A DNA stretch of 34,016 nucleotides from NCBI GenBank assembly GCA_021798015.1, contig JAJZYP010000011.1, forward strand, positions 1-34,016. The letters are read 5' to 3'. The notes beneath the pieces were generated by a model. That model was not told where the DNA came from. It made no database searches and saw nothing but the letters and a program-made list of their open reading frames with translations. The position numbers and the translations under genes were made by a program. Of the stretch, positions 17,303 through 29,860 are shown in pieces. How positions within the stretch are numbered: position 1 is the first letter of the stretch; every line of letters begins with the position of its first letter. The DNA comes from a bacterium (GTDB taxonomy: Bacteria; SZUA-79; Acidulodesulfobacterales; Acidulodesulfobacteraceae).

Positions 17303-17381
17303 GAACTTTTTTATGAATTTAAAATAAAAATTTAGTTTTATGCACCTTATAAAATTTAATCGGGGATTTAAACTGTTAAAC

Positions 17382-17433
17382 TGGTGCCGAGAGGCGGAAT
17401 CGAACCGCCGACACGAGGATTTTCAGTCCTCTG
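17382..17433. repeat. attL: displaced 3' end of tRNA-Phe
   Basis: Identical over 52 bases to 29785-29836. It holds the anticodon stem-loop, T arm, acceptor 3' strand and CCA of tRNA-Phe but no 5' half, so it is not a functional tRNA; it marks the left end of the element. Confidence 0.95.
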
Positions 17434-17487
17434 TCTTAATTTATAACTAACTGATATTATTAAATAATTAAACGATATTTAAAATAT

Positions 17488-18652: not shown

Positions 18653-19555
18653 ATGAAAATAGATGGGTTAAGAAAAGTAGGACTTAATGAAATCATGATT
18701 AGCTTTGGTTATGAAAGAGATGGAAAGCAAAGCGATTTGCGCCGTAGCATTTATCATACGGATATGGGGAAAATTAGCATTATGGATCCCAAGTTTTATA
18801 ATTTTTCTTCAGGAAACGGCGGGGGCGGTGCAATCGATTTAGCAATGCATCTAAAAAACTGCTCTTTCATTGAAGCTTGCAAATTTTTAAATAATAACTA
18901 CACGGAAAAAACTACAACTACTCGGAAAAAAACAATATCAAACAATATATACCATATACCTAATATGCTTATGCCCGAAAGGAATGACTCTAAAATCAAT
19001 ATCGTATTTGATTATCTTGTTAACAATAGAAAAATACCTTCTAATTTTGTCAATTCATTGATATTGCACAATGCAATATATGCGAACAAGTACGGCTCGG
19101 TGGTTTTCAGACATTGTTCCTTTGTGCCGGAATTAGATGGCGAATATAGAGTGAATGGCGCGACTATAAGGGGAACTTATAATAAATTCAAGCAAACTAT
19201 TGGAAATAAAGACGAGGGTTTATTTTGGTTCGGGAAAAATGTCAAAGATGCAAAAAAGGTTATTTTGGCTGAATCCCCGATTGATATTATTTCATATTTC
19301 TGTTTAAAAAGCGGCTCATCTGATAATTGCTACATAAGCCTTTCAGGGGTTTCTTTTCCGAGCAGGCTAAAAGAACTTTTACGGTTAAAAAATATTATAC
19401 TGGCGCTGGATAATCCCGATTTTGAAAAGAACATGACCGCAAAAACGACTAATTTAAAATTAGAAAAAGAAATAAAAGAAATAAGTAAATTTGTTAAAAG
19501 AGAACTTCCATGCAATAAGGATTGGAATGATGACTTAATTTATAAAATGGGATGA
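18653..19555 (+). CDS. Toprim primase-like protein (DUF3991/Toprim type)
   Basis: Likely replication primase of the element. The N-terminal part has YHTDMGKISI-type strands followed by FYNFSSGNGGGGAIDLAMHL (about residues 55-72), the region that carries the zinc finger in DnaG; here the zinc cysteines are missing. The C-terminal part holds a Toprim domain: VILAESPIDIISY with the acidic residue Glu207, and IILALDNPD with Asp253 and Asp256. GAGG precedes the ATG. The next gene starts 4 bases after its stop and encodes a helicase-like protein, completing a minimal primase-helicase module. Confidence 0.8.
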   Translation: MKIDGLRKVGLNEIMISFGYERDGKQSDLRRSIYHTDMGKISIMDPKFYNFSSGNGGGGAIDLAMHLKNCSFIEACKFLNNNYTEKTTTTRKKTISNNIYHIPNMLMPERNDSKINIVFDYLVNNRKIPSNFVNSLILHNAIYANKYGSVVFRHCSFVPELDGEYRVNGATIRGTYNKFKQTIGNKDEGLFWFGKNVKDAKKVILAESPIDIISYFCLKSGSSDNCYISLSGVSFPSRLKELLRLKNIILALDNPDFEKNMTAKTTNLKLEKEIKEISKFVKRELPCNKDWNDDLIYKMG

Positions 19556-19558
19556 AAA

Positions 19559-20935
19559 ATGCTTGAAAAACTTGTAGGAGAGAAACTTAAAAATGATTTA
19601 ACGGCAAAAAGTGCTGACCGATTGCTGACCGATTTGTCAGCGCCGCAACAGCAAGCGGGAGTTGGAGTTCATAGAAATATTCCCGCCGCTGACATAGGGG
19701 GTGCAAATAGGGCAAAAAGACATCAATCCCGCAATATCATTGAATTGTTGTCTAAAAAACCCTTGTCAAAAGACGCAAAAAGCACCGTAAAAGCGTATAA
19801 TTTAATCAAAAATCAGCTAAATTGGCGCGGAAACTTGGCAATTCCCCCTGTATCTTTTTTAGAAACCGTAACTGCTGTTTTCAAAAACGAAACCGATATT
19901 GCGTTAGAGTTGCCATTCTTTGCTGGATTAAATTTTATTGCCGCTCACCTGTTATATTTAAACGTTAGTATTAACTTTTCCGACCAAATTATTAAGCCGG
20001 ATATTTGGACTATAATTTTATCCGAATCCGGTAGCGCAAAGACTTTTGCAAATAACGTCTTCGAGAAAGCTATTGATATAAAAAATCTCTTCGATACAGG
20101 AATACAATCGTCGGCTAAGTTTATCGAAGAATTGCAGAAAAATAATAATGGCTTTTGGATACGCGACGAGTTTGCCCAGCTTTTGAAGGCAATGAAAACG
20201 CAGTCATACTTAGAAGAATTAAAAGACTACCTGCTTAAAATCTATGACAATAAAACAATTATGCGCAAAACCTTAAATCGTGAAATTATCGTTGAAAATC
20301 CAGCTTTAGTCTTGTTTGCCCTAAACGTATATTCCACTTATCTTCAAAATATTTCTTTCGAGGATATATTAGACGGTTTCGCCCAAAGATTAAACTACGT
20401 TATTGCGAAACAAGACCCTGAACGCCCCGAACTATCCGTCGCATTATATCCTTTCAAGCTGTTAAGAGAAACGGTAAAGAAGTCATGGAAGAAGATAAAG
20501 TTTCCTCGAAAGGACAAAACATATATCTTAGGTAAGGAAGCTGTTAAAGCATTTGAGGAATCATTTTACTCCTATGCCGCAACCGAAGCAGGAAAACTTC
20601 CTGCGTCCTTTCTGCGCAGGACACTGTTTAAGTCTATAAAATATTCACTTATTTATCATATTATTTTAAAAAAAGCTAATAAAAAAGAAATCGACGCAGA
20701 AGATATAACTTGGGCGATGAGAATTATATTACTGCATATTTCGGATGTTAAGGAAGTGTTGGAAAATTATGGCTTTTCTGATTTGGAAAAAACAATTCAG
20801 AAAGTCGAAAACTTAAAGAAAAAGTTAGCGGCTCAGGGGAAACCAATAAAAACAAGGGATATTATATCTAATGTTAAAGAGATTAGATCGGTTCCAGAAG
20901 CTAAAGCAATTCTTGAAATTATTTATCAAACGTGA
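19559..20935 (+). CDS. DUF3987-like replicative helicase/ATPase
   Basis: A 458-aa protein with a RecA-like core. The Walker A-like loop is ESGSAKT (residues 156-162, in ILSESGSAKTFAN), and the Walker B-like acidic pair is in WIRDEFAQLL (Asp203, Glu204). FAQRLNYVIAK supplies a candidate arginine finger or sensor. The N-terminal 90 residues are low in motif and contain a Gln/Ala-rich stretch (SAPQQQAGVGVHR). The first gene overlap is close (3-base gap) to the primase, so the two are almost certainly expressed together to start replication of the excised element. Confidence 0.8.
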   Translation: MLEKLVGEKLKNDLTAKSADRLLTDLSAPQQQAGVGVHRNIPAADIGGANRAKRHQSRNIIELLSKKPLSKDAKSTVKAYNLIKNQLNWRGNLAIPPVSFLETVTAVFKNETDIALELPFFAGLNFIAAHLLYLNVSINFSDQIIKPDIWTIILSESGSAKTFANNVFEKAIDIKNLFDTGIQSSAKFIEELQKNNNGFWIRDEFAQLLKAMKTQSYLEELKDYLLKIYDNKTIMRKTLNREIIVENPALVLFALNVYSTYLQNISFEDILDGFAQRLNYVIAKQDPERPELSVALYPFKLLRETVKKSWKKIKFPRKDKTYILGKEAVKAFEESFYSYAATEAGKLPASFLRRTLFKSIKYSLIYHIILKKANKKEIDAEDITWAMRIILLHISDVKEVLENYGFSDLEKTIQKVENLKKKLAAQGKPIKTRDIISNVKEIRSVPEAKAILEIIYQT

Positions 20936-20979: not shown

Positions 20980-21393
20980 ATGGAAATGAAAGAAAAAAAT
21001 AATATTACGGTTTACGTTGCAGATTTTGACGAGCGATATTTTTATTTAGTTTCTTCAGACCCTATGGAAGAATATTATCGGCATGACGGTTATAATTTCA
21101 TTTTACCTAAAACTAAGGCTTGCCTTAAGGAATTTCCATGTCAGTTTAAGGAAATAAACGCATACATCGAAAAAATTGCCGGGAGGAGAGTTTACCTATC
21201 CCAAGTGCATTGGTTATATATGAAAAATCTGATAAAAGACGAGCTCGGCCTTGATGTTAAAATCAAAAAACGTTATCCGGGTATTCTTACGGTAGCGGAA
21301 CTTATAACGCTGAACCAAAAAATAGATAAAGCTGCGTTAAAAAAACTCTCTAAAAACTGCTCGGAAAAGATTTACATAAAATCCGCCAAGTAA
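20980..21393 (+). CDS. Unknown protein of the replication module (137 aa)
   Basis: No family recognised. A strong Shine-Dalgarno (AAAGGAAGGAAG) lies ahead of the ATG. The first half is strand-rich with aromatic residues (ITVYVADFDERYFYLVSS), and the second half is helical and basic (YLSQVHWLYMKNLIKDELGLDVKI, then LKKLSKNCSEK). No cysteine pair motif, signal or membrane segment. It is the last gene of the plus-strand replication cluster before the structured noncoding region. Confidence 0.65.
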   Translation: MEMKEKNNITVYVADFDERYFYLVSSDPMEEYYRHDGYNFILPKTKACLKEFPCQFKEINAYIEKIAGRRVYLSQVHWLYMKNLIKDELGLDVKIKKRYPGILTVAELITLNQKIDKAALKKLSKNCSEKIYIKSAK

Positions 21394-21514: not shown

Positions 21515-21838
21515 GATATATAAATGTGCTATCAGATTGATAGAAGTCGATGGTGATTCTGCGATAGAAAGGTTTTTAAATACCCAACCGCTTTCGCTTC
21601 CTTTGGCGTCAAAGGAAGTAGGGTTCGGGACAACGTCCCGACATAATATCTTTAAACCATCGTTTTTCGCCGGAGTGCACCGCAAGCCGCAAGTTGTTTA
21701 AGCCCGCTTGCCTAGTTTGAGCAATGAAGCGGGTTAAAAAGCACGGAGCAAGAAAAACGATAACAACTGCCGCCTCCTTCAGTTTGAGCGGTAGCGATAA
21801 TTTTTACGATAGTAAAAATGACAAACTGAGGGAGGGGG
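21515..21838 (+). ncRNA. Candidate structured noncoding RNA with pseudoknot
   Basis: No credible gene fills this stretch, yet it is full of long stems: 21529-21534/21538-21543; 21597-21605/21610-21618 (9 bp, 4-base loop); 21625-21631/21635-21641 (7 bp); 21701-21709/21727-21735 (one G-U); and 21773-21786/21822-21835 (14 bp, one U-G) enclosing 21800-21807/21812-21819 (8 bp). A 10-bp helix 21659-21668/21752-21761 and a 7-bp helix 21692-21698/21762-21768 interlock as an H-type pseudoknot with adjoining 3' strands. The wobble pairs are G-U only if the plus strand is the RNA, which sets the orientation. I know no RNA family to assign; edges are approximate. Confidence 0.6.
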
Positions 21839-21891
21839 GATGAAAGGCACAAAATACATAATTTTATAAAAGTGATTACTATTTTTTCAAT

Positions 21892-21919
21892 TTGATTTTT
21901 TTTAAAAATATGATATTAT
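21892..21919 (+). promoter_or_regulatory. Sigma-70-type promoter of the second recombinase leader
   Basis: TTGATT (21892-21897), a 16-base spacer, TATTAT (21914-21919). Expected start near 21926. This leaves an untranslated leader of about 630 bases before the recombinase ATG at 22558. Confidence 0.55.
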
Positions 21920-21925
21920 AAAAAC

Positions 21926-22557
21926 ATTGGTCAATTCATCTGCGATTCTGCGCTTTAATTGGCGGCGCTTTAAAAGGAATCACATATCTTCGTAAAAAGA
22001 TTAAAACTTACCTATTTTAGAAAGAAAATCAAAAACTTTCCAATCTGAAGCAAACGGATTATTAAATTTGCAAATATTTGCTCTATCGGCTTGTAAAATC
22101 CTGTCGTTCTACGGTGATTTTTAAGTTTATCTTATGATAAGCAATGAAAATACCTATTGAACCTAAGATTTTATAAAGGAAAATTTATTCCTGCCCGGAA
22201 AAAGAAACATTATATTCCGGGTTGCCTAAAAGTAAATACCTTTCTAAAGGAAGCCGAAATCTTCCATAGTTATCCTGATTAACTCTAAAAAACCAGACAA
22301 AGACTTGCCGGGTCTATAACACGGAAATTAACTTTATAAAACATATAAGGATTATTGGCTTTATCCCTTTTGTTTAATCATCTGAGAGCTGGGATTGTCT
22401 ACCCTGTAAAAAGCCATTTAAAAAAGACATTATCTACCTTAAAGCAGGGACTATAAAGTTCCAAGGACATATACATAATGTAATAAAGCAAATTAAAAAT
22501 GCCGCTGCCGGGATCTTGTCTAAAAATTAACAAATTATTTTGAAGGAGGAAATACAA
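21926..22557 (+). ncRNA. Long structured leader or large noncoding RNA upstream of recombinase gene
   Basis: About 630 bases without a credible reading frame. Complementary segments include 21998-22002/22042-22046 enclosing 22020-22024/22036-22040; 22056-22060/22097-22101 enclosing the palindrome GCAAATATTTGC (22070-22081); 22127-22131/22136-22140; 22194-22200/22215-22221 (CCCGGAA stem); 22249-22253/22261-22265; 22357-22362/22410-22415; and a three-tier stem 22427-22433/22475-22481, 22437-22440/22463-22466, 22447-22451/22458-22462 with a G-U pair on the plus strand. No T-run terminator separates it from the recombinase, so it may be its 5' leader or an independent RNA. Confidence 0.45.
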
Positions 22558-23436
22558 ATGACAAAGATAGAATATAAGATAAATCAGGAACTAAAGCAAA
22601 TAGAACATTTCCATAAAATGGATTCTCCCCTATCCGTTGTAAGTAACAAAAGCGACCACGATATAAGGCAGGATATGAGGCGTATAGCAAAAGACGCTCG
22701 AAACTTCGGAATCGGCGTTACCGCAAATCAAAAAGGCGATATTGGAAAATGGAGCAACGGGAATATTTCTAAAATGGTGGAATACTATAAAGCCTATGGG
22801 CTAAAGGACGCAACAATCATTAATTACGTCTCTTCCTTGAGGTCCTTTTTGCATGAAACCGGGAAAACGAATATTAGCATTTCCAACGGCGAACTTGGAC
22901 TTAAAAGGGAAATGGAATACAAGGACAAAAGCCTAAACGCAAAGGGAGTGGATATACACAAAAAACTCGCATATTTCAAAGAAAAAGATGCCAACGTTTA
23001 TGCCCAGCTAAAAATATCTTCCATAGCCGGATTAAGGAAGGAAGAAAGCGTCCACGCCGCACTTGCGCTGGCCAAAGGATACGATATCCTTAAGGATGAT
23101 AAGCTAATCCTTAAGGGGTCATGGTGTAAAAACGGCAGGCCGAGGGAGATAAAACTTTCACCAGAAAAGGTTAAAGAATTTGACGAGCTTAAGAAGTACG
23201 CAATGAACGGCGATTATAATAAAAGCAGAAATCTAAAACAGGAAATGAACCACTTGGGAAATTCTATTAAGAACGCCGGATTTAACATGCACGCAGTCAG
23301 ACATGGGGTAGCGCAGGAAAGATATGCCGAACTCATAAATAAAGGTTTTGACGAAAAAGGGGCTAAAACGGCGGTTTCGCAAGAACTTGGGCATAACAGG
23401 GATTATGTTACGAAGGTTTATCTCGGCGGAAAATAA
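22558..23436 (+). CDS. Tyrosine recombinase (integrase-domain protein), second in element
   Basis: A 292-aa DNA breaking-rejoining enzyme. The catalytic set is visible: Arg in IAGLRKEES, HAVRH (HXXRH) near residue 242, LGHNRDYVTKVYL with the likely nucleophile Tyr close to the C terminus. The N-terminal 120 residues are a core-binding domain (DIRQDMRRIAKDARNFG, then ATIINYVSSLRSFLHE). The ATG at 22558 is preferred to a TTG at 22540, because GAAGGAGG (22543-22549) lies in the gap between them. It is unlike the integrase at the right end, so it probably does a different job, such as dimer resolution or control of a second site. Confidence 0.85.
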   Translation: MTKIEYKINQELKQIEHFHKMDSPLSVVSNKSDHDIRQDMRRIAKDARNFGIGVTANQKGDIGKWSNGNISKMVEYYKAYGLKDATIINYVSSLRSFLHETGKTNISISNGELGLKREMEYKDKSLNAKGVDIHKKLAYFKEKDANVYAQLKISSIAGLRKEESVHAALALAKGYDILKDDKLILKGSWCKNGRPREIKLSPEKVKEFDELKKYAMNGDYNKSRNLKQEMNHLGNSIKNAGFNMHAVRHGVAQERYAELINKGFDEKGAKTAVSQELGHNRDYVTKVYLGGK

Positions 23437-23556: not shown

Positions 23557-24390
23557 ATGTCCGAAAAAGATAATTTTAAAATATTATTAAAAGAATTTGC
23601 ATCAACAATAACCGAACATTTAAGTTCCGGAGACGGGCAATGGACGGTTAAAGGGTTTATTGATATATATAAAAATGTCTATACCATTTCCTCTGATACG
23701 AAAATTGTATCTAAAATTTTAGAGATTCATCTTTTTCCAAAAATTCTAACTTTTGCCGAGCAAATTGGATATAAGATAGTGCTTGCAGACCATCAGAACT
23801 ATTATCCAGATTTAACATTTATTAAAAAATCCGATGAAAAAATAAAGTTTGCGGTGGATTTTAAAACAACTTATAGAAAACCTGAAAATAAAAACCTTTG
23901 CAATGGTTTTACTTTGGGTTCACATGGTGAATATTTTATTAACAGAGAAAATAAAAAGAATATACAATTTCCTTATGGCGAATATAATGGGCATTTTTGT
24001 TTCGGCATAATATATGATAGAGCGGATGGCTCGACTATTGATGAAACTAAAGTATATAAAGTTGATAATCTGCAATCTATTGTTTCAGTTGTTAAGAATT
24101 TTCAATTTTTTGTGGTTGAAAAATGGAAAATAGCTAGCGATAGAGGCGGAAGCGGGAATACCGCAAATATAGGAAGCATTGTTTATATAAAGGATATTAT
24201 TGAAGAAAATGGCATGTTTTCAAGATTAGGTGAAAAATGGTTCGATGATTATTGGATAAATTATAACAAAATAACAATTATTAACGACGCCGGCAAACCA
24301 GAGAAAATTAATAATCTCTATAAATTTGTAAAATACAGAGGTGGAGATGTATCGCTAATTATTCAAAAACATAACGGAGTAAAAAAATGA
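23557..24390 (+). CDS. EcoRV-type type II restriction endonuclease
   Basis: Predicted to cut DNA at GATATC. The 277-aa protein matches EcoRV along its length by recall: SDTK near residue 47 with Glu56, the catalytic set Asp85 (YYPDLTF), Asp101 and Lys103 (VDFKTTY), and the DNA-recognition loop GSGNTANIGS (198-207) against GSGNTTNIGS in EcoRV, plus HQNYYPD against QNHYPD for the minor-groove loop. All residues I know to contact the target in EcoRV appear kept. It is about 30 residues longer than EcoRV. The stop overlaps the methyltransferase start by 4 bases (ATGA), so toxin and antidote are co-translated. Confidence 0.9.
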   Translation: MSEKDNFKILLKEFASTITEHLSSGDGQWTVKGFIDIYKNVYTISSDTKIVSKILEIHLFPKILTFAEQIGYKIVLADHQNYYPDLTFIKKSDEKIKFAVDFKTTYRKPENKNLCNGFTLGSHGEYFINRENKKNIQFPYGEYNGHFCFGIIYDRADGSTIDETKVYKVDNLQSIVSVVKNFQFFVVEKWKIASDRGGSGNTANIGSIVYIKDIIEENGMFSRLGEKWFDDYWINYNKITIINDAGKPEKINNLYKFVKYRGGDVSLIIQKHNGVKK

Positions 24391-25292
24391 TTGGCAATAA
24401 AATAATTGTTCCACCTATAAAAAGTCAGGGTATTAAAACGAAGCTTGTCCCGTGGATTAAATCTATCCTCCCACAAAAAACAGGCAGATGGATTGAGCCT
24501 TTTATGGGAACCGGCGTAGTCGCATTCAATACCGATTTTAAAGAAGCCTATCTTAGCGATATTAATCCGCATATAATTAATTTTTACAATGCAATAAAGA
24601 ATAAAGATATAACGCCTCATCTCGTAAGGTTTTTTCTTGAAAAAGAGGGAAATATATTAAAAAATAGAGGGGAAGAACATTATAAGTTTATTAGAGACAG
24701 GTTTAATAAATATTTTGACTCGCTGGATTTTTTGTTTCTTTCAAGAGCTGGGTTTAACGGCATGATAAGATTTAATAAAAAAGGTTGCTGGAATATTCCG
24801 TTTTGTAAAAAAATAAATAGGTTCAACAAATCTTATATAACAAAAATAGTTAATCAGGTTTCACGCGTATCTAACCGCATTACTTCCAATTGGATATTTG
24901 AATGCACGGATTTTAGAGAAATAATAAAAAAAGCAAGCAAGAATGATATTATATATTGTGATCCGCCTTATCATGGTCGTTATGTTGATTATTATAATGG
25001 ATGGTCGGATGATGACGAAAATGATTTATTTGAATTATTAAGCATCACGAAAGCGAAGTTTATTCTATCTGCATGGCATCATAATAATTATAGAAGTAAT
25101 TCAATGATAGAAAAATATTGGAATATCTTTAATATAATTACAAAAGAACATTATTATCATTCCGGAGGTAGGATAGAAAATAGAAATTCCATTGTAGAAG
25201 CTCTTGTTTACAATTTTGAACTTAATTTTTCAAAGCCTGTCGAAAAGTCCTTATTTTTGGGTGTTGGAAGTATGTCAAAAATAAGTTTATAA
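24387..25292 (+). CDS. Adenine-N6 DNA methyltransferase, D12/Dam class (M.EcoRV type)
   Basis: Protects the host by methylating adenine in the sequence cut by the neighbouring endonuclease. The SAM-binding motif is EPFMGTGVVAFN (about residues 35-47) and the catalytic motif DPPY is at residues 192-195 (YCDPPYHGRY). PPIKSQGIKTKLVPWI at the N terminus is typical of Dam/M.EcoRV class enzymes, which bind the GAT part of their target. Length 301 aa is normal. The ATG overlaps the endonuclease stop. EcoRV itself has divergent genes, so the arrangement differs here. Confidence 0.92.
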   Translation: MIGNKIIVPPIKSQGIKTKLVPWIKSILPQKTGRWIEPFMGTGVVAFNTDFKEAYLSDINPHIINFYNAIKNKDITPHLVRFFLEKEGNILKNRGEEHYKFIRDRFNKYFDSLDFLFLSRAGFNGMIRFNKKGCWNIPFCKKINRFNKSYITKIVNQVSRVSNRITSNWIFECTDFREIIKKASKNDIIYCDPPYHGRYVDYYNGWSDDDENDLFELLSITKAKFILSAWHHNNYRSNSMIEKYWNIFNIITKEHYYHSGGRIENRNSIVEALVYNFELNFSKPVEKSLFLGVGSMSKISL

Positions 25293-25304
25293 CTAAAGTC
25301 AATA

Positions 25305-26273
25305 ATGTTTTTTAGATCGTGTCAAGATTTTCAAATAAATATGACAGAAAAATTAAAAAAACCGCCGGCAATAGAAGAAACTAAACAACAAATAACTATT
25401 AATGATTTAATCGATTTTTTTGATAATTTTTTAAAAATTCTTTCATCTTCAATCGATGATATTTTAAATTATGCTCAATCTAATCATATAAAAGATATTA
25501 AACAGTATGAGAGCATTATTTTAAAACAAATCAACAAAAGATCAACAAAAAAGGAAATAAATGATTTTTTAAATATTGCAAAAAATGATTTGAAAGATTA
25601 TAAAAACTTAATGGAGAAGAAAAGCTATCCTAATGCAATTTATCACCTTCAACAATCTGTTGAAAAAACAATAAAAAGTATGTGTTTCTTCTTATTTGTT
25701 GATTTTAAACCAAGATCAGTTGGGCATGACTTTTCTAATATAATGCTCTTGCTTAAAAAGGATGGGGTATTGTCTGATTTATTAAAAGAATTTATTATAA
25801 GGTTCGAAAACAAATTAAATAAATATTTTAATTACAAAATTAAAATTTTTGGGAACACAAAAATAGATTTATCTAATTTTTGGATTGATATTGACAATAA
25901 AATTTTTTTAAGAGATTTTAAAAAACGAATGATAGAAATATTTTCAGAAAATTCAGCAGGGGTATCGTTTTTTTTATTAATGTTTCTCAATTTTAAGAAG
26001 CAGATAAAGGAAACATCTGATGGCGGCAATAAAATTAGTTTGTATAATATATTATATAGTTCGGAACTATTTATTTTTCATATGATTTTATCCCCTCACG
26101 AGGATTCAACTCGATATCCAAATAATGATAAAAGTAAAATGGGGCCGGGAGATTATACTGAAAAATCCCAGATAGTTAGTTTTTCCAATTATATTAGCAT
26201 GGAATTAGAAGAAATAATCGAACATATTAATAAAATAATATTAAATGTAAAGTCTCAAGTAAATATTATTTAG
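25305..26273 (+). CDS. HEPN-like domain protein of the defence cargo
   Basis: A 322-aa protein without a name I can give. Residues about 95-150 match the HEPN pattern: a helix DLKDYKNLMEKKSYPNAIYHLQQSVEKTIKSM, then SVGHDFSNIMLLLKK, as in HEPN proteins of toxin and abortive-infection systems. A clear RNase RX4-6H motif is not seen; RSVGH is the nearest. The C-terminal 150 residues are helical with FFLLMFLNFKKQ. No good Shine-Dalgarno precedes ATG 25305; the ATG at 25341 is an alternative start. It lies 12 bases after the methyltransferase stop, so it is probably co-transcribed with the restriction-modification genes. Confidence 0.6.
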   Translation: MFFRSCQDFQINMTEKLKKPPAIEETKQQITINDLIDFFDNFLKILSSSIDDILNYAQSNHIKDIKQYESIILKQINKRSTKKEINDFLNIAKNDLKDYKNLMEKKSYPNAIYHLQQSVEKTIKSMCFFLFVDFKPRSVGHDFSNIMLLLKKDGVLSDLLKEFIIRFENKLNKYFNYKIKIFGNTKIDLSNFWIDIDNKIFLRDFKKRMIEIFSENSAGVSFFLLMFLNFKKQIKETSDGGNKISLYNILYSSELFIFHMILSPHEDSTRYPNNDKSKMGPGDYTEKSQIVSFSNYISMELEEIIEHINKIILNVKSQVNII

Positions 26274-26374
26274 ATCAGGCTTTCAAGAAGAATATTAATC
26301 TAAATTCGTCAATAATAAATTATAACTTTTATAAATAGTTATAAATTTAAAATAACTTAAATTCAGGAAGCATT

Positions 26375-28147
26375 ATGAAAGCAGAAGCTAAAGCTCTAAA
26401 TTTTATTATTAATGAAGGAATAATTAAGGTTCCATTTTTTCAAAGGTCATATGTTTGGGATAAAGAAAATTGGGAGGAATTATTTGAAGATTTAGCCGAA
26501 TTTAATAATTATCATTTTCTTGGATCAATAATTTTTAAACAACAAAAAGTTTCAACAGGTGATCCCAAAGAAGTTTCATTGATTGATGGGCAACAAAGAT
26601 TAGCAACTATCTGTATCTTATTAAAAGCGATTTACGATAATTTGGATGATGATAAAAAAAAGAATTTATATGGTAGACTTGAATCTTTTCTTTATTTCAA
26701 GAAAGATGAAACTGGTAGTGAATTAGAAGAAAAAATTAAACTTTCTAAAAATGATAGAGAAGATTATAAAGAAATAATATTAAATGGCAATATAAGTGAT
26801 TCAACTAAAAAAACGGGATTAATTGGATGTTATAATCATTTTAATAAAAAACTTAAGAATAAAATTATTGAAGATAAAACGATTCTCGATAAATTAATAA
26901 ATAAAATTTTTAGTTCAAATTACAAATTATTTGTTGTTATTGATCTTGAAGCGGAGGATAATGAACAGGAAATTTTCGATACGATAAACAGTGCCGGGGT
27001 GAGATTAAGCAGTGCAGATATAATTAAAAACGCCTTATTCCAAAGAATATTAGAATTAGATACACTGGAAATTAAATTAACAGATTTATTATATAAAAAA
27101 TATTGGGAAGATATTTTCCAATCAGATAAAGAAAAAGAGAATGAATGGCTAAAAGAAAAAAATACTGGCAGGGTAAAAAGAGACAATATTGAGATATTAT
27201 TTCATTCATACGCGGTATTAAAAAGTTTTTTTGATCCTGAAAATGACAACTTATCTGACCTATCTTCTATATATAAAAAGGAATTACATAAATTTAAGAC
27301 CATAGCTGAGATAGAGAAATTTTTTTTGATAGAACTCACCAAATATGCAGATATTTTCTATAATAATCTTATTTCAGAAATTGAATTATTGGAATTTGAC
27401 AATCAGATTGACAATCAGATTCATCGTACCTTACATATTATTAATACTTTAGAACTGTCAACATTTTATCCATTAATACTCTATATATTGCATAATATTA
27501 AAGCAGAAGATAGAGAAAAATACTTAAAAGCATTAGAAAAGTATGTTATCAGAAGGGCGATTGCCAATAAAACAACTAAAAATTATAACAAAGAAATAAA
27601 AAATTTTATTAAAGATATAAACTCACTTATCTCGGCATCAAATGATGATACTAATGATACTGAAATATATAGCGGGCTACAAAATATATCAAATAATAAA
27701 GCAAACCTAATTTTATTTTGGATAGAATTATATAGAAGAAAAGATTCTAAATATGACATGAAGGAATTAAAATATACCTATACTTTAGAGCATATATTGC
27801 CCACCAAATGGGAGCAACATTGGTCCGACATCCCTGTTTATGACGAAAATGAAAATGAAATTACTAACGAGGGGGAAAAGAAAAGAGTAAGGAATCAATT
27901 ATTAAATTCAATCGGAAATATGACATTGCTGAGATCCAGTCTAAATTCTTCTATTAGAAATAATAAATTTGATATAAAGATAAATGGATCCAGCGGAAAA
28001 AAAGGGATTAAAGACTATGCCGATTTATCTATTACCAAAGAAATTTTGCCTTCTTCAAGTATTCATTCTTGGGATGAACGTAATATTAGAGAACGAACCA
28101 AGAAATTATTTGAGGAATTTAAAAATATTTGGTCAAAAGGTTTATAA
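26375..28147 (+). CDS. DUF262/DUF1524 (GmrSD-like) NTP-dependent nuclease
   Basis: A single-chain member of the GmrSD/BrxU/SspE type of DNA nucleases, which act against incoming DNA, often with modified bases. The N-terminal DUF262 domain has PFFQRSYVW (residues 20-28) and the nucleotide-handling motif DGQQR (71-75). The C-terminal DUF1524 HNH-like nuclease has YTLEHILPTKW (His473) and IGNMTLLRSSLNSSIRNNKF. Length 590 aa is complete. AGGA precedes the ATG. Its substrate is not evident. The gene is AT-richer than its neighbours, in line with its recent gain, and it lies about 100 bases after the HEPN-like gene. Confidence 0.88.
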   Translation: MKAEAKALNFIINEGIIKVPFFQRSYVWDKENWEELFEDLAEFNNYHFLGSIIFKQQKVSTGDPKEVSLIDGQQRLATICILLKAIYDNLDDDKKKNLYGRLESFLYFKKDETGSELEEKIKLSKNDREDYKEIILNGNISDSTKKTGLIGCYNHFNKKLKNKIIEDKTILDKLINKIFSSNYKLFVVIDLEAEDNEQEIFDTINSAGVRLSSADIIKNALFQRILELDTLEIKLTDLLYKKYWEDIFQSDKEKENEWLKEKNTGRVKRDNIEILFHSYAVLKSFFDPENDNLSDLSSIYKKELHKFKTIAEIEKFFLIELTKYADIFYNNLISEIELLEFDNQIDNQIHRTLHIINTLELSTFYPLILYILHNIKAEDREKYLKALEKYVIRRAIANKTTKNYNKEIKNFIKDINSLISASNDDTNDTEIYSGLQNISNNKANLILFWIELYRRKDSKYDMKELKYTYTLEHILPTKWEQHWSDIPVYDENENEITNEGEKKRVRNQLLNSIGNMTLLRSSLNSSIRNNKFDIKINGSSGKKGIKDYADLSITKEILPSSSIHSWDERNIRERTKKLFEEFKNIWSKGL

Positions 28148-28581: not shown

Positions 28582-29637
28582 TTACTCAATTTTTCCCCCC
28601 CACACCTCATCCACAGCTTTTTTAAGCGTATCCGGCAATAGATGGCTATACCTTTTCGTCATCTGCGTTGTCCTGTGTCCTAACAGCTCCCCCGTAATAT
28701 ACAGGCTCGTCCCGCCCATTACCATTTTGCTTGCGAATACGTGCCTTAAGTCGTGGATACGCAAATCCTTCAACCCCGCATTTCTGCACGCCGTATGAAA
28801 AGAACGCTTAAAATCGGTTAATTTAGCCCCGTTGTTATTAAACACGTATAAACAGTCTTGAATTTTATTTATGCCGCTTAAGAGAGATTTTAGCGGTTTT
28901 GAAACAGGAATATACCGGTCGTATTTTGTTTTCGTCCCTTTTATTGCTATAACGCCGGTCTTTAAGTCCACGTCGTCCCATTTAAGATTTAACGCCTCTC
29001 CCTTGCGGCAACCGGTATAAATCAAAAAAGTTATTAAATCTTTAGTCAGCTTATTCGTGGCGCCTGCGATAAGCTTATTAATATCTTCATCGGAAAGGGT
29101 TTTAAGGCGGGATAATTCGTTAAGTTTTTTTATGCCGATTGCCGGATTTTGCGAAATATATTCCCGTTCTATACAGAAATTAAAAAAGTTAGACAATGTA
29201 ACTATTTCAAGATTAACCGAACGATAATTCATTTCGCCGTCCTTTTTACCTTGATTTTTGGATAATCCTATTAATTCTAATTTTCTTGAAAGCTGATAAT
29301 TCTTGATATCGTTAACCGTAATTTCTTTTAAATTTTTATTCTGAAAAACCGGTAAAAAATGCTTGCCGGCAATACCTTTCCGTCTAACCGTATCTTTCTC
29401 GTTATTTATGCGTGAATATTTTAAGTATTCTTCCCAAACGGTAGTAAAGTTTACTACCGTCTTTTTTAAAAACGGCAGGTCGTTCTTTTCCCGTGCTATA
29501 TCGGTTTGTTTAGCTTCGGCAATTAGTTTTGCGGACTGCTTATCGGTAGTTTTAGTGGTTCCCTGGTATTTTTTTCCTTCGTAGGTTATGCAGTAATACC
29601 ATATATCGTTGCCTTTCTTGCGGTATATTGAAGCCAT
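28582..29637 (-). CDS. int: Tyrosine integrase of the tRNA-Phe element
   Basis: Catalyses insertion and excision at tRNA-Phe. The 351-aa protein has an N-terminal arm-binding/AP2-like domain (SIYRKKGNDIWYYCITYEGKK), a SAM-like core-binding domain, and the catalytic set Arg in YTGCRKGEAL, HDLRHVFASKM and LLGHRTTQMTKRYSHL with the nucleophile Tyr near the C terminus. A longer frame starts at 29712, but the ATG at 29637 has GAGGGG at the right distance and matches the usual start of the family; the extra 25 residues would be read through two GTAGTAA repeats. It lies next to the intact tRNA. Confidence 0.93.
   Translation of the reverse strand: MASIYRKKGNDIWYYCITYEGKKYQGTTKTTDKQSAKLIAEAKQTDIAREKNDLPFLKKTVVNFTTVWEEYLKYSRINNEKDTVRRKGIAGKHFLPVFQNKNLKEITVNDIKNYQLSRKLELIGLSKNQGKKDGEMNYRSVNLEIVTLSNFFNFCIEREYISQNPAIGIKKLNELSRLKTLSDEDINKLIAGATNKLTKDLITFLIYTGCRKGEALNLKWDDVDLKTGVIAIKGTKTKYDRYIPVSKPLKSLLSGINKIQDCLYVFNNNGAKLTDFKRSFHTACRNAGLKDLRIHDLRHVFASKMVMGGTSLYITGELLGHRTTQMTKRYSHLLPDTLKKAVDEVWGGKIE
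29438..29460. repeat. Perfect 11-bp inverted repeat built on GTAGTAA, inside int
   Basis: ACGGTAGTAAA, one base, then its exact complement. It carries two inverted copies of the motif that occurs in pairs at both ends of the element. On the plus strand it is followed by C and T6, so it could also work as an antisense terminator. It lies in coding sequence. Confidence 0.5.
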
Positions 29638-29653
29638 TTTACCCCTCATATAA

Positions 29654-29671
29654 GGTAGTAATGGTAGTAAA
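29654..29671. repeat. Paired GTAGTAA sites in the int leader
   Basis: GGTAGTAAT (29654-29662) and GGTAGTAAA (29663-29671) in direct tandem, just upstream of the integrase Shine-Dalgarno. Binding by the integrase here could both form the attR arm and repress its own gene. Confidence 0.5.
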
Positions 29672-29784
29672 TAAGTAGGAAAATTTTTACATTTTGCCTC
29701 ATTTTTACTCATAATTCTACATTTTTATTCATATTAAAGTCAAGAGGAAAATCTTAGAAATGCCTTATTTACTGCGGTTTAAAG

Positions 29785-29860
<76 letters not shown>

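Follow-up and report, generated by a model that had tools for sequence, protein, structure and literature searches.

The hairpin cluster described here is real, far beyond chance and evolutionarily conserved. By analogy with MpsA, MobK and TcpM, we propose with about even confidence that positions 21582-21835 act as an oriT-like folded DNA site, which the tyrosine recombinase int1 would recognise as a recombinase-type relaxase. This proposal is based on the observed conservation and covariation, on the place of the element before a recombinase gene, on a like layout on distant plasmids and on a linkage to coupling-protein genes. Positions refer to the window, i.e., the whole stretch of 34,016 nt that was analysed.

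The element lies in an island bounded by attachment repeats. The left repeat (17376-17436) gives a 62-bp alignment at 97% with the right one (29779-29840), which is located inside tRNA-Phe (29785-29860), and the main island integrase (28582-29712, minus strand) adjoins this tRNA. A replication module with Toprim/DUF3991 primase-like and DUF3987 genes (18653-20935, plus strand) is followed by the conserved island gene orf137 (20980-21393, plus strand) 5' of the folded element; relatives of orf137 were absent from the viral contigs searched. A preliminary description of this DNA had correctly placed the hairpins in a gene-free middle of the island. Defence cargo occupies 23557-28147 and comprises an EcoRV-type endonuclease with a D12 methylase, a HEPN protein and a GmrSD-type nuclease.

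A conserved fold of three domains

The stems drawn in the preliminary description were found in the window. They include a 14-bp stem (21773-21786/21822-21835) that encloses a stem of 8 bp (21800-21807/21812-21819), a 10-bp stem (21659-21668/21752-21761), a 7-bp helix (21692-21698/21762-21768) with its 3' strand directly next to the 3' strand of the 10-bp stem, and the hairpins 21597-21618 and 21626-21640. The view that such a density of structure exceeds chance also held, with a minimum free energy of -109.5 for 21515-21838 versus -82.6 in shuffles (z = -4.9; 0 of 100 shuffles). For 21575-21840, fold z-scores were -5.4 on the plus and -3.2 on the minus strand as RNA, and -6.6 and -5.7, respectively, as DNA; this stretch hence folds strongly as DNA too, and better on the plus strand. 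In contrast, the interlocking pseudoknot that had been described did not withstand comparison. The 10-bp stem recurs in nine same-group homologues and in two copies that are more distant, but its 7-bp partner is not preserved in them, and they offer at best 3 to 8 unrelated pairs instead. Likewise, a 5' end at 21515 finds no counterpart among homologues, as homology begins only around 21572-21582, downstream of a non-conserved 21515-21570; what is conserved as a unit spans approximately 21575-21840. A selected, folded island element thus stands from the earlier reading, whereas the pseudoknot, a transcript start at 21515 and RNA as the proven form are unsupported.

The element consists of three folded domains, A, B and C, within 21582-21835 (about 255 nt). 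Domain A (21582-21640, plus strand) is formed by a stem ACCC (21582-21585)/GGGT (21621-21624) around the hairpin 21597-21618, followed by the hairpin 21626-21640. Its homologues show compensatory changes, i.e., AACCC/GGGUU, AAACC/GGUUU and AACCU/AGGUU as well as CAAGCG/CGCUUG and CAAGCUG/CAGCUUG. Domain B (21659-21761, plus strand) starts with the 10-bp stem and continues over an internal loop, in the window GCCGGA (21669-21674)/GGAGCAA (21745-21751), to a stem GTGC (21675-21678)/GCAC (21741-21744) and an inner hairpin. The loop reads C-GCCGKA-G/C-GRAGCAA-G, is invariant across copies and sometimes appears twice along a single hairpin; a short form of this pattern occurred 21 times in the order and 0 times in a reversed control. 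Among 18 distinct copies of domain B, 94% of cells were paired and both sides had changed in 9 of 13 pairs, with a covariation score of 0.454 versus 0.110 when shuffled and at most 0.10 for slid pairings. Domain C (21773-21835) is a long, near-perfect palindrome whose arms, CCTCCTTCAGTTTG/CAAACTGAGGGAGG, enclose an inner hairpin; the apex of the domain in the window contains TAGCGA. The palindrome is retained in all complete copies, and we propose domain C as the core binding site of the tyrosine recombinase.

A covariance model was built from an alignment of nine homologous elements of the order, with the window left out. In the aligned structure, 96.6% of cells were paired and double changes occurred at 7 pairs. 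Comparison among homologues, the check suggested earlier, yielded strong covariation, and the homologues shared no conserved reading frame. The held-out model matched the window at 21579-21839 (E = 6e-18, 68 bits) despite a strongly different domain B sequence. Model copies were present in 22 of 30 genomes of the order, several per genome, with unrelated flanks and in part truncated; in divergent copies the stems are wholly replaced and the three-domain plan is retained. Two of the truncated copies stop within domain B and are then followed by unrelated genes (L069, 2191-2338; L071, 4973-5110). The strict domain B pattern was absent from the viral contigs searched. A looser pattern gave at least 120 matches in viral contigs, with the flanking stems in almost none of those examined, and these matches were treated as chance.

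Leader and recombinase genes downstream of the element

Domain C is followed by a promoter-like site (21892-21919, plus strand), which is a consensus match only (TTGATT-16-TATTAT with TG before the second hexamer) and is conserved in several homologous islands. Behind it, a conserved non-coding leader of about 520-620 nt with several hairpins (21925-22540, homology to about 22443, plus strand) precedes int1. Leader identity between islands is 72-85%, and compensatory changes were seen in 12 of 92 consensus pairs. The leader, which the preliminary description had not singled out, is a candidate structured RNA; it may be the real RNA here and is likelier to be one than the folded element. The int1 gene (22558-23436, plus strand) encodes a tyrosine recombinase with a match to PF12835 (Integrase_1) above cut-off and a complete R160-K191-H245-R248-H279-Y288 set, and these catalytic residues are invariant in 13 int1 relatives. 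Furthermore, an N-terminal domain of the SAM-like, i.e., core-binding, type is present in int1 and its relatives (PF12834 in the plasmid relatives and in the proteins of L355 and L358). A profile search of solved structures with int1 returned nothing, and a search of genome contigs returned ten loci, of which those identified were the same MAG contigs of this order.

Several unrelated islands have the element 0.4-1 kb upstream of the gene for a secondary tyrosine recombinase, with both in the same orientation. Islands of the prim/DUF3987 type show this arrangement, and Rep3-type elements have the same order with another recombinase and another leader. In L355 and L358 the element precedes divergent int1-like genes with 26-32% identity to int1, in L356 a shortened one, and overall the recombinases behind element copies share only about 19-32% identity with int1. 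The L355 copy lies in a transfer-gene element that also encodes TraH, TraU, TraG_N and a RepB primase; no relaxase was recognised among its long open reading frames. Several copies (L141, L143, L147, L149, L150, L152, L153 and L357) have no recombinase in reach, some of them reaching a contig end, which weakens the view that a recombinase always follows the element. The link between element and recombinase is hence strong but not universal. The cargo beside the element varies and can lie on either side, i.e., a SIR2-like gene, VapBC (L139/L140), a 273-aa gene (L137) or nothing. In two of the order's islands (L007, 6607-7839; L079, about 1400-2600), the SIR2-like cargo separates orf137 from the element. 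Several mobile regions (L137, 1662-2483; L149; L150; L152) encode, 110-340 nt behind the element, a member of a protein family of 264-280 aa that has no convincing match in Pfam. A repeat GGTGTCAGATTTATTTATTC...CTCCCGAC...GTCGGGAG was noticed at many places (L138, L139, L144, L312) and may be the one that belongs to the RAYT-like Y1 transposases encoded in these genomes.

Relatives of int1 (Phage_int_SAM_2/Integrase_1; PF12834/PF12835) were also found on plasmids of Gammaproteobacteria and Alphaproteobacteria, and 72 of 87 plasmid records with an int1-like recombinase are typed non-mobilizable. We examined 16 such plasmids, 15 of them with usable upstream DNA. When the best inverted repeat within 1 kb upstream is taken for each plasmid, a long palindrome lies 364-829 nt upstream of the gene in 12 of the 15 and is missing in 3; these palindromes were longer than those of 29 or 30 of 30 shuffles. 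Their arms often read GTCACTAC-N6-8-GTAGTGAC, a layout like that of recombinase core sites. On 6 of the 16 plasmids (pSIO1, three from Acinetobacter, one each from Psychrobacter and Pleionea) a type IV coupling protein gene follows the recombinase, directly or past a small gene, which links this recombinase family to conjugation. For pSIO1 the coupling protein was confirmed by Pfam (T4SS-DNA_transf, 1.1e-45). This plasmid (L371, 4.9 kb), typed non-mobilizable, has four annotated genes, i.e., the int1-like recombinase, the small gene, the coupling protein and a hypothetical one. Two plasmids carry a MobA/MobL gene beside the recombinase, so that the recombinase could instead resolve dimers.

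Proposed function and rival explanations

Folded site, leader with promoter-like sequence and recombinase gene follow one another in the same order as in known systems, which points to an oriT-like site with a candidate RNA partner. Among the roles listed in the preliminary description, an origin-type role is the one that the evidence favours, albeit there it had been put forward for an RNA and not for a DNA site. We infer folding as DNA, nicking and transfer, as well as the transcription and role of the leader, as follows. As a relaxase-like enzyme acting on the folded site, the function we propose for it by analogy, int1 would bind the palindrome arms of domain C. In DNA that is single-stranded or extruded, domains A and B would fold and expose the conserved internal loop of the GGA type, which would serve as a structure-specific landmark. 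int1 would nick one strand, and the island would pass via the type IV secretion system of a helper. The leader would be transcribed with int1 and may supply an RNA required for transfer, as a possible functional analogue of the sgm-sRNA of SGI1.

As the main rival, ahead of a pure RNA and then of a functionless repeat, we rank dimer resolution or cargo recombination. The element would then be the site at which int1 resolves dimers or captures and exchanges cargo, with domain C as a dif/lox-like core and A and B as accessory DNA structure. The 6-8-bp spacer between the plasmid palindrome arms fits this explanation, as do the core-binding and catalytic domains of int1 with their full catalytic residues, the circular replicons on which its relatives reside, and the variable cargo directly beside the element (SIR2 in L007/L079, VapBC in L139/L140, the 273-aa gene in L137). 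We nonetheless consider it rather unlikely, because it explains neither the recurrent association with coupling-protein genes and TraG/TraH/TraU nor the long conserved leader, and no clean cassette bearing the site at both ends was found.

The data do not settle whether the element functions as DNA or RNA. A structured plus-strand RNA of the island that acts in trans or regulates in cis, either by itself or as the 5' portion of a longer transcript with the leader, would agree with the better RNA fold of this strand (z -5.4 versus -3.2), with many GNRA-like loops and with the compensatory changes in the leader. Interior G-U pairs also outnumber A-C pairs in the element by 13:6 when counted by distinct context, a ratio compatible with that of RNase P in the same genomes (4:1) yet not decisive for RNA. 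Conversely, a low G-U content was discarded as proof of DNA, as RNase P scanned identically had the same fraction (7/694 versus 17/1761). Several observations weigh against an RNA: the fold is no less significant when computed as DNA, the palindrome of domain C is nearly perfect, domains A-C showed neither a conserved promoter nor an intrinsic terminator, and no Rfam family gave a covariance-model match. Moreover, several apical loops are a two-base TT or GAA on 2-bp stems, which according to known hairpin thermodynamics are favourable mainly in DNA. Taken as a whole, we regard the RNA explanation as unlikely. A small dispersed palindromic repeat (REP- or MITE-like), moved by Y1 transposases and devoid of host function, appears highly improbable, although the copies are several per genome, have unrelated flanks and are in part truncated, and Y1 transposases occur in 19 of 30 genomes. 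Dispersed palindromes are shared with REP/RAYT systems, and so is the GKAG tetranucleotide that precedes the inner hairpin, a REP feature. Yet the element differs from these in its low copy number and complex three-domain architecture, no model match lay beside any of 23 Y1 loci, compensatory change dominates, and the element stays before recombinases that have diverged as far from int1 as described above.

Comparison with known systems

Three systems with tyrosine-recombinase-type relaxases are known, i.e., MpsA of SGI1, MobK of pIGRK and TcpM of pCW3 (PMC6414798, PMC8152469). These proteins were reported to lack a core-binding domain and to have no significant similarity to one another (PMC8152469). 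The present locus shares with them a gene of the tyrosine recombinase superfamily that retains the catalytic residues and, in architecture only, an upstream inverted repeat of the same orientation; since int1 keeps its core-binding domain, we do not file it in this class. Tentatively, and with somewhat less than even confidence, we suggest that the PF12834/PF12835 recombinases represent a widespread unrecognised mobilisation system of islands and of plasmids typed non-mobilizable. It would combine a folded-DNA origin, an sgm-like leader RNA and a relaxase with a core-binding domain, often with its own coupling protein. If so, the element in the window would be the first origin of this system structurally resolved by covariation. 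At present, plasmids and islands with an int1-like recombinase are scored non-mobilizable because no classical relaxase is found on them. As a transfer system, the module would explain the movement of many small plasmids and islands and widen a class of only three characterised members, and the odd RNA requirement of SGI1 would become testable in other systems.

Integron attC/attI sites resemble the element in their single-strand hairpins, whose stems vary and whose unpaired bases are conserved, the adjoining tyrosine recombinase and the nearby cargo. We rejected attC because no RYYYAAC/GTTRRRY boxes, cassette arrays or paired sites were seen and the gene orientation is opposite. The likeness to TcpM/oriT of pCW3, i.e., a tyrosine-recombinase-type relaxase and an inverted-repeat oriT, is one by description. 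In pIGRK, oriT1 is located directly upstream of mobK (PMC8152469). Here as there, several inverted repeats lie upstream of the gene for a tyrosine-recombinase-like protein, the relaxase in pIGRK and a proposed one here, and the AGCGA motifs of pIGRK recur in the domain C apex. However, MobK consists of a short catalytic domain, the distance from its oriT to the gene is much smaller, and a G4 motif is required there. SGI1 has a 125-bp GC-rich inverted-repeat oriT, and the core of the sgm-sRNA, which is needed for SGI1 transfer, is encoded between oriT and the tyrosine recombinase gene mpsA (PMC6414798, PMC9299015). MpsA, which is reported to have no core-binding domain, acts together with MpsB, and the site described here is about 255 nt long with three folded domains; the likeness is one of architecture. 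In the order oriT-sgm-sRNA-mpsA-mpsB, SGI1 nevertheless combines, like the island in the window, an inverted-repeat site, a non-coding stretch and a tyrosine recombinase gene in one orientation on an integrative island, and the partner element in L355 also carries TraG/TraH homologues. By this analogy, int1 may work like MpsA, MobK and TcpM.
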